A stretch of 64,000 nucleotides of DNA from Deferribacter autotrophicus. GTDB taxonomy: Bacteria; Chrysiogenota; Deferribacteres; Deferribacterales; Deferribacteraceae. The notes beneath the pieces were generated by a model. That model was not told the DNA's origin. It made no database searches and saw only the letters and a program-made list of their open reading frames with translations. A program made the position numbers and the translations under genes. Positions 74 through 37,562 of the stretch are shown here, one piece after another; within the stretch, counting starts at the first letter, position 1, and the number at the start of each line of letters is the position of its first letter. Location: contig NZ_VFJB01000003.1 of the NCBI RefSeq assembly GCF_008362905.1, positions 317,501 to 381,500 of the forward strand. Reading direction: 5' to 3'.

Positions 74-533
74 ACTGGAGTCACCCAATTTTTTGTAAGC
101 AGTAGAATTAGTTGCCACTGAAAAGGTGGCAACTCCTATTAAACATTTTAATCTCAGCTATATTGTTTCGTCGTTTTCGCTCCTCACTAGTGACGACAAC
201 AAACCTGTCATTGCGAGTGTTAGCGAAGCAATCTCTTGCACGAAAGGGTAAAACATCAATAAAGAAAGATTGCTTCGGGCCTAAAAGCCCTCGCAATGAC
301 ATAAATAAGAGAGATCGCTTCGTCATTTTGTTCCTCGCGATGACGTAGCGGTGGGATTGCTTCGTCGCATCCGCTCCTTGCTGGTGACGCTATGATTTCC
401 GTCATTGCGAGCGTCAGCGAAGCAATCTCTTGCACGAAAGGGCAAGACATCAATAAAGAAAGATTGCTTCGGGCCTAAAAGCCATCGCTGGTGACATAAC
501 AAAACAATCTTCGAAAAATGGGGTGACTCCAGT
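74..533. mobile_element. Type B inverted-repeat element (copy B1) carrying REP-like units
   Basis: The left end reads ACTGGAGTCACCCAATTTTT and the right end, read in reverse, ACTGGAGTCACCCCATTTTT, giving inverted termini of about 20 bp. Inside are one AGTTGCCACT hairpin (110-134) and several REP-like units of the CATTGCGAG...GAAGCAATCTC type (about 210-500). There is no credible gene in it. I see no target duplication. The rest of the gap to 604 holds the promoter of the TetR gene. Confidence 0.75.
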
Positions 534-6849: not shown

Positions 6850-6893
6850 AATTTGAAAATTATTGAAATATGTAAGATTGTAATTCATAATAT

Positions 6894-7239
6894 AATTAGT
6901 TCTCACTGAAAAAGTGAGAACTAATTATTAATAATAACTTTATAGTTATTTAATTAGTTTTATAGCAAAAAGTTAAGAAGAATGCGCTATTTATGAAAAT
7001 CATGAAATATAAAGTAATATTATAAGTTTCATCTCTGAGTTTTTTATATAAATTATTAAAAAACTGGTGGAATTTTTATAGTAATACTGGTATAAATTAA
7101 ATATTATTAATTAGTTGCCACTGAACACGTGTAACAAAGCATTTGAGTAATATATTGCCTGTGAACAGTTCAAGCTTTATTGTTCAAAGTTAGAATGTGT
7201 ACAATATTATTACACGTGTTGAAAAAGTGGCAACTAATT
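6894..7239. mobile_element. Type A hairpin-bounded element, copy A1
   Basis: The left end is a 33-base hairpin (6894-6926) with 14-bp arms containing AGTTCTCACT around a GAAAA loop. The right end is an AGTTGCCACT hairpin (7109-7239) whose loop is split by the 95-bp element N1. The 180 bp between are AT-rich and non-coding, and match the interior of copy A2 at 21475-21720 nearly base for base. With C1 it fills the gap between the RND pump and the HIT gene. Confidence 0.85.
7125..7219. mobile_element. Nested 95-bp palindromic element, copy N1
   Basis: The segment begins ACACGTGTAA and ends TTACACGTGT. It is flanked on both sides by TGA (7122-7124 and 7220-7222). Removing it with one TGA restores the intact hairpin loop CACTGAAAAAGTG seen in other copies. 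The interior is also partly self-complementary. Identical-length copies in the same loop position occur at 14021-14115 and 31555-31649. Confidence 0.85.
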
Positions 7240-8148: not shown

Positions 8149-8915
8149 GATTGTACAATAAAAACGTTTCAAGAGTGCAACTTTATGATAACAAAAGATT
8201 GCTTCGCTGACGCTCGCAATGACGATAATGATCTTGTCATCGCGAGGAACGAAGTGACGAAGCGATCTCATCAGTACGTCATTGCGAGGAGCGTAAGCGA
8301 CGAAGCAATCTTTTCCGTCAACAACTTTCATTTCTCACACAAAGAGATTGCTTCGCTTACGCTCAGGGTGACGACACGTTTACAGTCATCGCGAGGAACA
8401 AAGTGACGAAGCGATCTCATTAGTCGACTACTTTGCCTTTGCGCACAGGAGATTGCTTCGGGTCTTGCGACCCTCGCAATGACGCAAAGTGGCAGCTAAC
8501 TAATAGTTAATATGTTTTTCTTTTTTTTTCTGGGTGATTTAAAGGGGGGGTTACCCCAAATTAGTTTTATTTTCAGAAAACTAACTTTAACTAACAATAA
8601 CTAACTTTAACTAACTACTAACTAACAATAAACTAACTATAATTAACTATAAATAACAACTGATAACCATGAATAACTAATAATATACTTGTAATTTGAC
8701 AATTTTGTCATATCTATAACATTTATGTCAAAAATTGTAACTGTATTGCACAGTTATTTACTATTATGCTAACTCACTGATAGCATTGAGTTTAGTTTAC
8801 TAACACTCGTAATAACAACTATTTTCTACGTCATTGCGAGGAGCGTAAGCGACGAAGCAATCTCATATCTATCAAAAAGTTATAAACAAGTTATCTATTA
8901 TAGTGCAACATCTTT
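8149..8915. mobile_element. Large degenerate type C element with multiple REP-like units (C3)
   Basis: The left end (ATTGTACAATAAAAACG, then GTGCAACTTTATGATAA) and right end (AGTGCAACATCTTTAAA) are diverged versions of the type C termini. Between them are REP-like units at about 8190-8480 and 8830-8865, a GGGGGGGTTACCCC palindrome near 8545, and low-complexity DNA. No gene is supported in this 770-bp stretch; short open frames follow the REP units and look incidental. Confidence 0.6.
8578..8680. repeat. TAACTAA-type low-complexity tract
   Basis: The stretch consists of imperfect tandem copies of AACTAACTTTA, ACTAACAATA and similar words. It is flanked by an AAATTAGTTTT...AAAACTAAC inverted pair resembling the insert inside elements A3 and A5. 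It has no coding potential. Confidence 0.55.
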
Positions 8916-11052: not shown

Positions 11053-11406
11053 TAAACAAGAGATTGCTTCGCTGACGCTCGCAATGACAGCCACCTTTTA
11101 CGTCACCAGCGAGGAGCGACAGCGACGAAGCAATCTCGCAACTACGTCATCGCGAGGAACGAAGTGACAAAGCGATCTCTTTTACTGATGTTTTCCCATT
11201 ACTCAAAAGAGATTGCTTCGGGTCTTGCGACCCTCGCAATGACGATGAATGTATTATGAGCGAGAAGAGTTTGCTTCGCTTTGCTCGCAATGACGGAAAA
11301 TCGAGAGCAGCCTTATTTGTCATTGTGAGGAACGGTAGTGACGAAGCAATCTCTTGTCTATCAAAAAGTTATAAAACAAGTTAGTTGTTACTGTACAACA
11401 TTTTTA
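11008..11406. mobile_element. Type C element with REP-like units, copy C4
   Basis: The left end GTATTGCATAATAAAAAACG lies inside the toxin gene; the right end is CTGTACAACATTTTTAA, a diverged inverted match. The body repeats the type C sequence AACTTTATGATAAACAAGAG and carries about five REP-like half-units (11060-11360). It fills the gap before the ABC transporter operon. No gene is seen in it beyond the borrowed toxin end. Confidence 0.7.
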
Positions 11407-12236: not shown

Positions 12237-13130
12237 ATGAAGAATAAGTTTGGCTATATATTGTTTTTGGTTTTGGTAGTGTGTTTTATAGTTTTTATGC
12301 CCTACTTTGTCGCTGACATGAAAAAACGCCCTCTTTATGAAAAACTTGGATATACTCCAAAAGGAAAATTATTTAAAGCAGCTTTGGGTGAATTTAGATG
12401 GTTTACAGGTGAATATCTTACATTTAAATCATTAATTTATTATGGTGGTAAAGTTGATTATCTTCTAAAAAGAAGGTTTGAAAAGATAGAATATTATAAT
12501 TTATTTAAAACAATAGAAACAGCAATCCTTTTAAATCCTTACCACGAAGATGCATATTATTTTGCTCAGGCTGCATTTACCTGGGATATAGGGAAAATAA
12601 AAGATGTAAATGCACTTTTAAAATATGTAATGAAGTATAGAACGTGGGATTTTAAAATTCCATTTTTCTTAGGATTCAATTACGCTTACTTTTTAAAAGA
12701 TTACAAATTGGCTGCTAAATATTTCAAAAAAGCATCTGAGCTTTCTAATTCTCCTCTTTTTACCTCACTTGCTGCACGATATTTTTATGAAGGTGGGGAA
12801 ACCGAGCTTGGGATTGCATATTTAAAGACGATGATAAAAATTACAAGAAAAGAGAGTATAAAAAAGTCATATGAAGTAAGATTGCAGGCTTTAGAAGCAA
12901 TCTATGCAATCGAAAAAGCAATAAAAAGATATAAGGAGAAAAACAACACATTACCTAAAGATATCAATGAGCTTGTAATAAAAGGTTTTCTTAGAGAAGT
13001 GCCCAAAGATCCTTATGGTGGAAAGTTTTATATTGATAAAGATGGAAAAGTGAGGACAACAAGCAAGCTTGCTTTCAAAAGACCAAAACATAAAAAGGGA
13101 AATGAAAATGGAAGTAATAAGAGTAAATAA
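12237..13130 (+). CDS. Membrane-anchored TPR protein of ABC exporter operon
   Basis: An N-terminal hydrophobic segment (residues 5-27) looks like a signal anchor. It is followed by helical repeats (ETAILLNPYHEDAYYFAQ; YKLAAKYFKKASELSNSP) typical of tetratricopeptides. The last 70 residues contain ENNTLPKDINEL-type spacing and VPKDPYGGKFYIDKDGKV, a pattern also found at the ends of type II secretion pseudopilin-like proteins. It sits between permease and ATPase and may be an accessory periplasmic factor of this exporter. Function unknown; the fold prediction is moderate. Confidence 0.8.
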   Translation: MKNKFGYILFLVLVVCFIVFMPYFVADMKKRPLYEKLGYTPKGKLFKAALGEFRWFTGEYLTFKSLIYYGGKVDYLLKRRFEKIEYYNLFKTIETAILLNPYHEDAYYFAQAAFTWDIGKIKDVNALLKYVMKYRTWDFKIPFFLGFNYAYFLKDYKLAAKYFKKASELSNSPLFTSLAARYFYEGGETELGIAYLKTMIKITRKESIKKSYEVRLQALEAIYAIEKAIKRYKEKNNTLPKDINELVIKGFLREVPKDPYGGKFYIDKDGKVRTTSKLAFKRPKHKKGNENGSNKSK

Positions 13131-14010
13131 CCTTTATAAAACTTTTAAAAGTAAAAGGAAAAAGGTAAACGCTTTAAACGGAATGTCTTTTACTGTTAAT
13201 AAAGGTGAAATCCTTGGATTTCTAGGTCCAAATGGTGCCGGTAAAAGTACCACAATTAAAATTATGATGGATTTAATAAGAGCAGATAGAGGATCAGCCA
13301 AGATATTAGGAATTGACTCATCTAGTCCTGTAGCGAGGCTAAAAGTGGGCTTTATGCCGGAAAATCCACAATACTACGATACATTGACAGGTTATGATCT
13401 GCTTATGTTTTCCGCAGCTATTTTTAAAGTGGATAAAAACGTGGCCAAAAAGAGGGCATGGGAACTCTTGGAAGAGTTTGAATTAAAGGATGCAGCTAAG
13501 CGCCCTATTAGAAAATATAGCAAAGGTATGATTCAGAGGATTGGATTTGCATCCACTTTGATACATGATCCAGAAATTTTAATACTGGATGAACCGATGA
13601 GTGGGCTTGATCCTATGGGCAGAGTATTATTTAAAAATAAAATGTTAGAGCTTAATAAAAAGGGGGTTACGATTTTTTTCAGCTCTCATATCATACCTGA
13701 TATTGAAGATATCTGTTCAAGAGTATTGATTGTAAATAGAGGGAAAGTGGTTAAATCTCTGGAAAAAACCGAAATAAAATATTTAACCACTACAGGTTTT
13801 AAAGTAATCATCGACAACCCAGTAAATATAGGCTTAAAACTTGAAAAAATTACAGATAACCTTTACAGTTTTTTATGTCCAAAAAATAACCTAATTGACA
13901 CTTTAGAAAAACTAAAAACACATAGTACTGAAATTATTGACATTGAGCCAGTCAAAAAGAGTTTAGAGGATATGTTTGTAGAAATTACTATGCAGGACAA
14001 AACCAATTAG
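13108..14010 (+). CDS. ABC transporter ATP-binding protein
   Basis: The 300-residue protein has a full nucleotide-binding domain: Walker A GPNGAGKSTT, a signature KYSKGMIQRIGFA, Walker B EILILDEPMSGLDP and a switch histidine in FFSSHI. The C-terminal 90 residues form the accessory domain common in NatA/CcmA-like ATPases. The ATG at 13108 is preferred, with AAAAAGGGA upstream; it overlaps the TPR gene by 23 bases. The TAG stop coincides with the first bases of the repeat element A3, so the original C-terminus may have been altered. It powers the ABC-2 permease encoded two genes upstream. Confidence 0.93.
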   Translation: MEVIRVNNLYKTFKSKRKKVNALNGMSFTVNKGEILGFLGPNGAGKSTTIKIMMDLIRADRGSAKILGIDSSSPVARLKVGFMPENPQYYDTLTGYDLLMFSAAIFKVDKNVAKKRAWELLEEFELKDAAKRPIRKYSKGMIQRIGFASTLIHDPEILILDEPMSGLDPMGRVLFKNKMLELNKKGVTIFFSSHIIPDIEDICSRVLIVNRGKVVKSLEKTEIKYLTTTGFKVIIDNPVNIGLKLEKITDNLYSFLCPKNNLIDTLEKLKTHSTEIIDIEPVKKSLEDMFVEITMQDKTN

Positions 14011-14451
14011 TTGCCACTGAACACGTGTAACAAAGTATTTGAGTAATATATTGACTGTGAACAATTCAAGCTTTATTGTTCAAAGTTAGAATGTGTACAA
14101 TATTATTACACGTGTTGAAAAAGTGGCAACTAATTTATAATAATTGATTTATTTAAATATTCCTATAAAAATTCCCCCAGTTTTTTTGATAATTTGTTCG
14201 TGACTTAAAGGGGGTAACCCCCCTTTAAATCCCCCAAAAAGAGGATAAAAATAAAAATTATTATTTTTAATAAATTAGTTTTTTAAAAAAACTAATTTAG
14301 GGGATGGAAATTATAATATTACCTTATTTCGTAGTTCTCAGGAAAGAAGCATTCTTCTTTAAACTCTTGTTAGAAAACTTATTTAAATATTAAAAATCAT
14401 AAAAATTATTTATTTAATAATTAGTTCTCACTTTTTCAGTGAGAAATAATT
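14005..14451. mobile_element. Type A hairpin-bounded element, copy A3 (inverted, with internal insert)
   Basis: The element runs from an AGTTGCCACT hairpin split by N2 (14005-14135) to an AGTTCTCACT hairpin (14419-14451, one mismatch). The interior is the reverse complement of A1/A2 with about 100 bp extra, including AAAGGGGGTAACCCCC (14213-14230) and a TTAGTTTT...AAAACTAA palindrome. It fills the whole gap between the ATPase and the leftward gene ending at 14450, and it touches both stop codons. Confidence 0.8.
14021..14115. mobile_element. Nested 95-bp palindromic element, copy N2
   Basis: It has the same ACACGTGTAA...TTACACGTGT ends, the same length and the same flanking TGA triplets (14018-14020, 14116-14118) as copy N1, with only a few substitutions. 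Confidence 0.85.
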
Positions 14452-21381: not shown

Positions 21382-21474
21382 ATATTTAGAAGGAATATTT
21401 TCAGTTGCTCTGGTTGTATTGCAAAGGCTGATAAATGGAAGCGTTGAGCAAAACAAATTTAAAAAACAATATGT

Positions 21475-21720
21475 AATTAGTTCTCACTGAAAAAGTGAGA
21501 ACTAATTATTAATAATAACTTTATAGTTATTTAATTAGTTTTATAGCAAAGAGTTAAGAAGAATGCGCTATTTATGAAAACCATGAAATAAAGTAATATT
21601 ATAAGTTTCATCCCTCAGTTTTTTATATAAATTATTAAAAAACTGGTAGAATTTTTATAGTAATACTGGTAGAAATTAAATATTATAAATTAGTTGCCAC
21701 TTTTTCAGTGGCAACTAATT
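21475..21720. mobile_element. Type A hairpin-bounded element, copy A2 (without nested insert)
   Basis: The 246-bp element begins with the AGTTCTCACT hairpin (21475-21507) and ends with an intact AGTTGCCACT hairpin (21688-21720). Its interior matches A1 closely, so A1 equals this element plus the 95-bp insert and its 3-bp duplication. In the right hairpin the loop reads CTTTTTCA rather than TGAAAAAG. It lies between dnaK's terminator and dnaJ. Confidence 0.88.
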
Positions 21721-21847
21721 AAAAAAAAGTGAAACTTCTTTGTGTGAGAAGTTTCAGCTTAGTAATAGGTATAACCTCTAAATTATTTGAAGGAATTTTT
21801 ATGATTGCTGAATAATAGCTGTTTTTTTATATTGATGGAGGTTAGGA

Positions 21848-29716: not shown

Positions 29717-29901
29717 AAGGTATTGCACAATAAAAATGCTTCAGAGATACAACTTATTGGTAAACAAGAGATTGCTTCGGGACTTACGTCCCTCGCAATG
29801 ACGATAACATTAACGTCATTGCGAGGAGCGGTAGCGACGAAGCAATCTTTAATTTATCAGTGAGTTATAAGAACATTAAGGTAATATTGTGCAACATCCT
29901 T
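29717..29901. mobile_element. Type C element with one REP-like pair, copy C2
   Basis: The ends AAGGTATTGCACAAT and ATTGTGCAACATCCTT are inverted repeats with one mismatch. The body is colinear with C1 (AACTTATTGGTAAACAAGAG, then two facing REP-like units), here with simple loops. A degenerate AGTTCTTACT end of a type A element lies just upstream at about 29642. No gene is present from 29630 to 30047. Confidence 0.8.
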
Positions 29902-31228: not shown

Positions 31229-31665
31229 AATTAGTTACTGCTGAAAAAGTGTATTTTATTGATAAATGGAAAATTATTCATTTGTGATATTTATAAAAAT
31301 GATACTTAAAGGGGGTAACCCCCTTTAAAACCCCCTATAAAGAAAATAAAATGGATAAGAATTTATTTATTATTTTTTACATAAATTAGTTTTCTAACGA
31401 AAACTAATTTAGGGGGTAAGTCCCCTTTAGAACCCCCGAAGAGGTTTAGAGTTTACAATAAATTATATAAGATAACAGATTTTAGTAATTGATGGATAAC
31501 AATCAGTATAATAAGGAAAAACATATTAACTATTAATTAGTTGCCACTTTTTCAACACGTGTAATAATATTGTACACATTCTAACTTTGAACAATAAAGC
31601 TTGAATTGTTCACAGTCAATATATTACTCAAATGCTTTGTTACACGTGTTCAGTGGCAACTAATT
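31229..31665. mobile_element. Type A element, copy A5 (degenerate left end, nested insert at right)
   Basis: The left end AATTAGTTACTGCTGAAAAAG is a decayed hairpin. The right end (31535-31665) is an AGTTGCCACT hairpin split by element N3. The interior carries AAAGGGGGTAACCCCC and a TTAGTTTTC...GAAAACTAA palindrome, like copy A3. Confidence 0.65.
31555..31649. mobile_element. Nested 95-bp palindromic element, copy N3
   Basis: It is the reverse-complement copy, again 95 bp long with ACACGTGT ends, flanked by TCA on both sides (31552-31554 and 31650-31652), the complement of the TGA seen at the other copies. Confidence 0.85.
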
Positions 31666-37260: not shown

Positions 37261-37296
37261 ATTTACTATCCAAATATTAGTTTTGTTTATAATACT

Positions 37297-37530
37297 AATT
37301 AGTTGCCACTGAAAAAGTGGCAACTAATTTATTATAATTGATTTATTTCAATATTCCTATAAAAATTCCCCCAGCTTTTGAATAATTTTTACAAAAAAAT
37401 GGGGGATGTAACCCACTTTTAAGTATTTATAAAATAAATTTTATAAAATGAAAACTTATTTAAAATTAATAAAATCATAAAAAATTTTCTATTTACTAAT
37501 TAGTTCTCACTTTTTCAGTGAGAACTAATT
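37297..37530. mobile_element. Type A hairpin-bounded element, copy A4
   Basis: The 234-bp element has an intact AGTTGCCACT hairpin at 37297-37329 and an intact AGTTCTCACT hairpin at 37498-37530, with AT-rich DNA between. Its orientation is opposite to A1/A2. It separates the binding-protein gene from its probable partner kinase, so the two are less likely to share one undisturbed transcript. Confidence 0.85.
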
Positions 37531-37562
37531 AGTGAGAGCTCTAAATTTAATAACTTTATATG

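Follow-up and report, generated by a model that had tools for sequence, protein, structure and literature searches.

The 2.535-Mb draft assembly of Deferribacter autotrophicus SL50, a thermophile of deep-sea vent origin (PMC13186404), comprises 10 contigs, and the 64,000-nucleotide stretch analysed here, which we refer to as the window, contains three copies (A1, A2 and A3) of a 95-bp palindromic element, each lodged in the loop of a hairpin (Table 1). As proposed in the initial annotation, the three copies are of the same length and have inverted ends and a TGA duplication: their termini read ACACGTGTAA and TTACACGTGT, 11 of the 12 end bases are paired, TGA is present on either side, and the copies differ from one another at 1-3 of 95 positions. 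The further proposal that removing the element together with one TGA restores the loop is borne out exactly, since this operation yields AATTAGTTGCCACTGAAAAAGTGGCAACTAATT in A1, A2 and A3, and the empty loop is likewise regenerated at a fourth occupied hairpin located outside the window (C1:156197-156291). Structures of the size of the element with paired ends and a TCA/TGA repeat occur 22 times in 377 kb of sequence, 18 of these being family members, whereas the reversed control gave one, and hence the palindrome is not a product of chance. As single-stranded DNA the 95-bp element folds with a z-score of about -4, which derives chiefly from its ends.

Table 1. Element copies, their junctions and associated hairpins in the window
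Feature	Position	Strand	Basis or remark
Copy A1, 95-bp element	7125-7219	-	strand convention: TCA precedes the element
TGA duplication, left of A1	7122-7124	.	junction read
TGA duplication, right of A1	7220-7222	.	junction read
Host hairpin of A1, left arm AATTAGTTGCCACT	7109-7122	+	sequence
Host hairpin of A1, right arm AGTGGCAACTAATT	7226-7239	+	sequence
Hairpin-ended host repeat of A1, from CTCAC hairpin (6898-6922) to occupied GCCAC hairpin	6890-7239	+	
Copy A2, 95-bp element	14021-14115	-	similarity search and junction read
Host hairpin of A2, two arms plus element	14005-14135	+	
Empty CTCAC-type hairpin, opposite end of A2 host repeat	14423-14447	-	
Copy A3, 95-bp element	31555-31649	+	inverted relative to A1 and A2
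Host hairpin of A3, two arms plus element	31535-31665	+	
Empty paralogue of A1 host repeat, both hairpins unoccupied	21471-21721	+	96-98% identical to A1 host repeat
Empty hairpin-ended repeat, paralogue of A2 right flank	37289-37542	-	
Empty GCCAC-type hairpin, one loop-side mismatch	110-134	+	

The stems of the host hairpins are of the GCCAC or CTCAC type, with a few of the AGCAC type, and the loop is identical across stem types. Most hairpins form opposite-orientation CTCAC/GCCAC pairs separated by 75-430 bp. The unoccupied state that the initial annotation described is visible in the window, where empty cores with the same loop lie at 6898-6922, 14423-14447, 21479-21503, 21692-21716, 37301-37325 and 37502-37526, with a variant at 110-134, and a census of the whole genome gave 71 empty hairpins versus four occupied ones. 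The arrangement resembles that of REPINs and BIMEs (PMC3116915, PMC2817692) in having inverted hairpin pairs around a short spacer, many copies and species specificity, but differs in that the spacers are mostly 140-430 bp long and there is no GTAG-type motif at the foot of the hairpin. The hairpin was absent from the 20 related genomes searched. A Y1-type (RAYT) transposase was sought as PF01797, which gave no match in this genome while the control search was positive in 5 of 14 genomes, and mobilisation of the hairpin by a RAYT/IS200 enzyme was rejected on this basis. The left arm of the A2 host hairpin includes the TAG stop codon (14008-14010) of an ABC-transporter ATPase reading frame (13069-14010). 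An unrelated second family of intergenic repeats (GTCATTGCGAGGAGCG..GACGAAGCAATCT) is also present in many direct and inverted copies, which in the window include 8278-8334, 8830-8886, 11103-11159, 11319-11375 and 29815-29871, among others.

The short hairpin might conceivably be the derived form, with the occupied state ancestral and the empty loops left behind by precise deletion of the element and one TGA. Inverted arms would permit such a deletion and the empty and occupied states differ exactly; however, the census, with its CTCAC-type hairpins that are never occupied, and the existence of the element family independently of the hairpin make this order of events very improbable.

The initial annotation suggested a search for copies outside the loop, and these were found. 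A DNA search revealed eight extra copies of about 80% identity, in which the match covers the element and the flanking TGAs and none of the stem, and searches with the ends added further subfamilies, so that 12 of the non-loop copies are more remote than this set. A family profile, built from 23 members and given the end pairing as its only structure, identified 24 members in the D. autotrophicus genome, all 95-99 bp in length with 12-bp inverted ends (ACMCGTGKAAYA), which we assigned to subfamilies A (n=4, in the loops), B (n=8), C (n=4), D (n=6) and E (n=2). Between 10 and 12 of the 12 end bases pair in all 24 copies, and two end positions covary between subfamilies (A-T/C-G at 3/98 and T-A/G-C at 8/93). 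A conserved interior RNA or DNA structure was considered and rejected: pairing common to the subfamilies is limited to the 12-bp ends, the interiors fold differently, and in two subfamilies folding is no stronger than in shuffled sequences. An integron attC site, with its R boxes and attC-like fold, was dismissed as well because the right-hand box departs from GTTRRRY and the interior lacks a conserved structure. At E≤0.01 the profile recovered no members from 29 other genomes of the order, a set that includes a genome of the same genus and lies apart from D. abyssi and D. thermophilus, and none of the viral contigs searched carries the element. Exact end-pair matches were found in three of 84,980 genomes (a Bacteroidetes MAG, a Saprospiraceae MAG and a Mollicutes MAG), where we estimate a chance expectation of a few or fewer; these matches have neither the TCA/TGA junction nor interior similarity, and are read as chance or convergent rather than as members. 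Between a B and a D copy, following TTCA, lies a 94-bp element that looks unrelated and has the ends ACCACCGCCTATA/TATAGGCGGGGT (L094:9217-9310); L086:5533-5593 holds a degenerate relative.

Every one of the 20 copies outside the hairpin is embedded in an array of GTTCAAN heptamers and shares its ends and TCA junction with the loop copies; deletion of the element together with 3 bp brings the array back into its 7-bp register. Copies elsewhere with other boundaries, which the initial annotation held would tell against its reading, are therefore not what the non-loop members represent. In 23 of the 24 copies the three bases on the left side are TCA. As to whether the duplication is always TGA, it nearly always is, read as TGA or TCA, and it is exact in 19 of the 24; the five inexact cases (TCA/TCG, TTA/TAA, TCA/TTA and, twice, TCA/TGA) look like later changes, partly toward a perfect palindrome. 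Judged from its junctions, the element inserts at TCA/TGA and duplicates these three bases. A 5-bp TTCAA duplication would suit the heptamer sites but misfits the loop copies, in which the right side reads TTCAG, and the 3-bp duplication was accordingly retained. The suggestion that the loop is a highly specific target thus does not hold for the family, in which 20 relatives lie outside it and the constant feature is the TCA/TGA core.

The flanks adjoining the elements in 14 heptamer-array stretches are unrelated beyond the arrays themselves, with scattered matches to other repeats farther out. Heptamer arrays free of the element were found in several other genera of the order, which makes the arrays the older of the two partners; on the same grounds the idea that they are a by-product of the element was rejected. 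Degenerate GTTCAAN arrays are common in the D. autotrophicus genome (for example C3:394235-394301, C4:52918-52998 and C5:80377-80443), often just 3' of genes, and occur also in genomes G002, G003, G008, G010 and G015; in another genus of the order, two of them (L160:1502-1540 and L159:1501-1725, from G008 and G015) seemingly lie inside an aminotransferase-like coding region.

It is mainly when the copies are aligned in the direction given by TCA that homology between subfamilies reaches significance (z of 12.4 for A-B, 3.8 for B-D and 3.2 for D-E, as against z≤1.8 in reverse), from which it follows that the copies of A, B, D and E, 20 in total, all point the same way relative to TCA. The four C copies share one direction among themselves; their orientation versus the other subfamilies is weakly scored, and one A-C pair scores slightly better reversed. 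Such uniform direction is unexpected for an ordinary transposon with near-identical ends. It could reflect polar site-specific recombination in place of DDE transposition, whereby a circle joint of the form CACGTG-TTCAA-CACGTG would recombine with the TTCA cores of heptamer arrays and, on rare occasions, with that of the loop. The fixed core is also in keeping with this mechanism, as are the B and D copies that stand adjacent in constant order at four loci with unrelated outer flanks; this fixed order, together with the pairing of the divergent B4 with the likewise outlying D2 at one locus, indicates that the pairs were copied together. However, homologous recombination between heptamer arrays could also maintain orientation, no recombinase was identified, and the one candidate enzyme class searched for, the Y1 transposase, is absent from the genome, so that we regard polar recombination as improbable. 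We attach equally little weight to the proposal that the 96-bp elements are minimal site-specific 'cassettes', in which inverted arms surround an asymmetric TCA core; these would integrate one way into heptamer arrays, singly or as ordered pairs, and now and then reach TTCA sites of other kinds, hairpin loops among them. If true, it would define a recombination system in which arrays of a 7-bp repeat act as landing pads for a mobile unit without a gene.

How the element came to occupy four loops can be approached by comparing its relationships with those of its hosts. Clade A is split from the other subfamilies with support of 89 and 0.93, and it is found in loops in 4 of 4 cases, compared with 0 of 20 for the other subfamilies (Fisher p 9e-5, for copies that share ancestry). 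The four occupied loops thus hold a single clade, always in the same element orientation within the loop. The A1 element is 97-98% identical to the A2 and A3 elements, although the host flanks of the latter differ from its own much more. Between A1 and A2, the element differs at 3 of 95 positions versus about 10 of 59 in the flank (p 0.005); between A3 and A4, it is the element that is more divergent, with 12 of 95 differences (87% identity) versus 11 of 235 in the flank (about 95% identity; p 0.016). These tests on the loop copies are small, with n=4, three of them within one 25-kb stretch, and the copies are not fully independent. Elements and host repeats thus differ in how far they have diverged. 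Amplification of the entire host repeat, as one form of the initial annotation's suggestion that the composite was amplified, would therefore be insufficient and is not supported by the sequence comparison; the A1 host repeat, moreover, is 96-98% identical to an empty repeat at 21471-21701, and near-identical empty twins exist for the host repeats of both A1 and A3 (21471-21721 and L106). What moved is smaller than the host repeat: either just the element or else the hairpin, or loop, that it occupies. Of these, exchange of the hairpin or loop is favoured.

Loop orientation provides a further discriminant. In the outward direction, starting from the repeat, the sequence of the empty loop is TTTTTC for 17 of the 18 classified flanks, which fall into three classes, and for 8 of 8 in class 1. 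The loop of A1, which has a class-1 flank, reads opposite to all eight of these. Exchange or inversion via the inverted stems would produce such a flipped loop in one step. Were a transposase with a preference for the hairpin loop, or for a cruciform, to have placed clade A in four loops independently, in the manner of IS1397 in the palindromic units of E. coli, an extra inversion of the loop would be required at A1. Independent targeting of this kind would account for the identical position in four differing host contexts and for the empty twins of A1 and A3, and insertion sequence families that aim at REP palindromes are well documented (PMC1525189). However, the other subfamilies are never found in the loop and clade A is found nowhere else, all four copies share one orientation within the loop, and none of the CTCAC-type hairpins, which are equally abundant and carry an identical loop, is occupied (0 of ~33, as compared with 4 of ~39), although this last difference is not significant (p 0.12). 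Repeated targeted insertion is accordingly rather unlikely, although it ranks first among the alternatives.

The loop restriction of the clade and the flipped A1 loop together favour exchange of the hairpin or loop after one entry over four separate targeted insertions. The same reading is supported by the exact regeneration of the loop, the large excess of empty over occupied hairpins, the 20 family members that reside elsewhere and the confinement of clade A to the loop. On balance we therefore lean towards a non-autonomous MITE-like element of approximately 96 bp that entered a loop once, after which the occupied hairpin or loop was exchanged among hairpin-ended repeats. The family mostly occupies GTTCAAN heptamer arrays. 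On this account, one clade-A ancestor would have invaded a TTTTTCA loop belonging to a hairpin at the end of small repeats of a separate family, and the occupied hairpin, or the loop alone, may then have passed between hairpin-ended repeats by recombination through their shared inverted stems. Exchange of this kind would give rise to the same position and near-identical elements in non-identical host repeats, with one inverted loop. Against this reading, the searches turned up no donor transposase, loop inversion could likewise follow an ordinary insertion, and a highly specific enzyme that hit one loop sequence four times independently would leave a closely similar picture.

The element shares with prokaryotic MITEs its small size (95-99 bp in 24 copies without coding capacity), near-perfect or perfect terminal inverted repeats, a short target duplication, an intergenic location and dispersal in multiple copies with unrelated flanks. 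Unlike these, it has no autonomous relative in the assembly, uses a single fixed core, TCA, has uniform orientation, and each of its subfamilies is confined to one repeat context. Neither a search of the genome with the ends, allowing up to one mismatch, nor a long-range end-pair scan of 514 kb recovered anything other than short elements, and no long, autonomous element with these ends was detected by either. Many published MITEs lack an autonomous partner. The enzyme behind the original insertions is probably no longer recognisable in the assembly, and a lost or diverged partner is possible. The 3-bp duplication is of the form TNA and in this resembles that of the IS1031 group of the IS5 family, but nothing else ties the element to that group: its ends are unlike those known for the group, no such transposase with these ends was found, and polarity is not expected of it. 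Site-specific recombination, or copying from array to array, would account for the polarity no less well than transposition of the IS1031 type.

Mobile elements at a defined position in a repeated extragenic palindrome are known from IS1397 and ISKpn1 (IS3 family) in REP/palindromic units and from ISNm1106 (IS5) in the REPs of Neisseria (PMC1525189). Those are full insertion sequences with a transposase for which targeting has been demonstrated, whereas the element described here is 95 bp long and most of its relatives lie in heptamer arrays. The D. autotrophicus hairpins are also associated with a larger element. An IS110-family-like element, which encodes a 395-aa recombinase that is identical in three translated copies and whose family was judged by sequence, is located in the 3' arm of the same hairpin family as that at 6898-6922 in the window (L186:7385-8830; L187, on the reverse strand; L188:4632-6080; L192; L084; L085). 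All six left junctions fall in the hairpin 3' arm, AGTG(AG/GC)AACT being joined to CCTACG, the five right ends that were read have ATAGTTGACT joined to AATT, and the hairpin loop always reads TTTTTC toward the left end of the element. A CT-type core has been described for IS621 in the REPs of E. coli (PMC11208160; PMC1525189), and the two are alike in having such a core in a repeated hairpin. Going by these junctions, one hairpin is a site for two unrelated mobile elements.

The family represents a compact case of gene-less elements that multiply without a visible transposase, in which one family occupies two repeat backgrounds, the background is specific to the clade and one orientation is maintained. 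In this case, spread through fresh insertions can be told apart from spread through recombination among repeats, a distinction usually left open for REP-like and MITE-like sequences, and, as the same hairpin is hit by an IS110-family element, one repeat may be compared as the target of two unrelated mobile elements.
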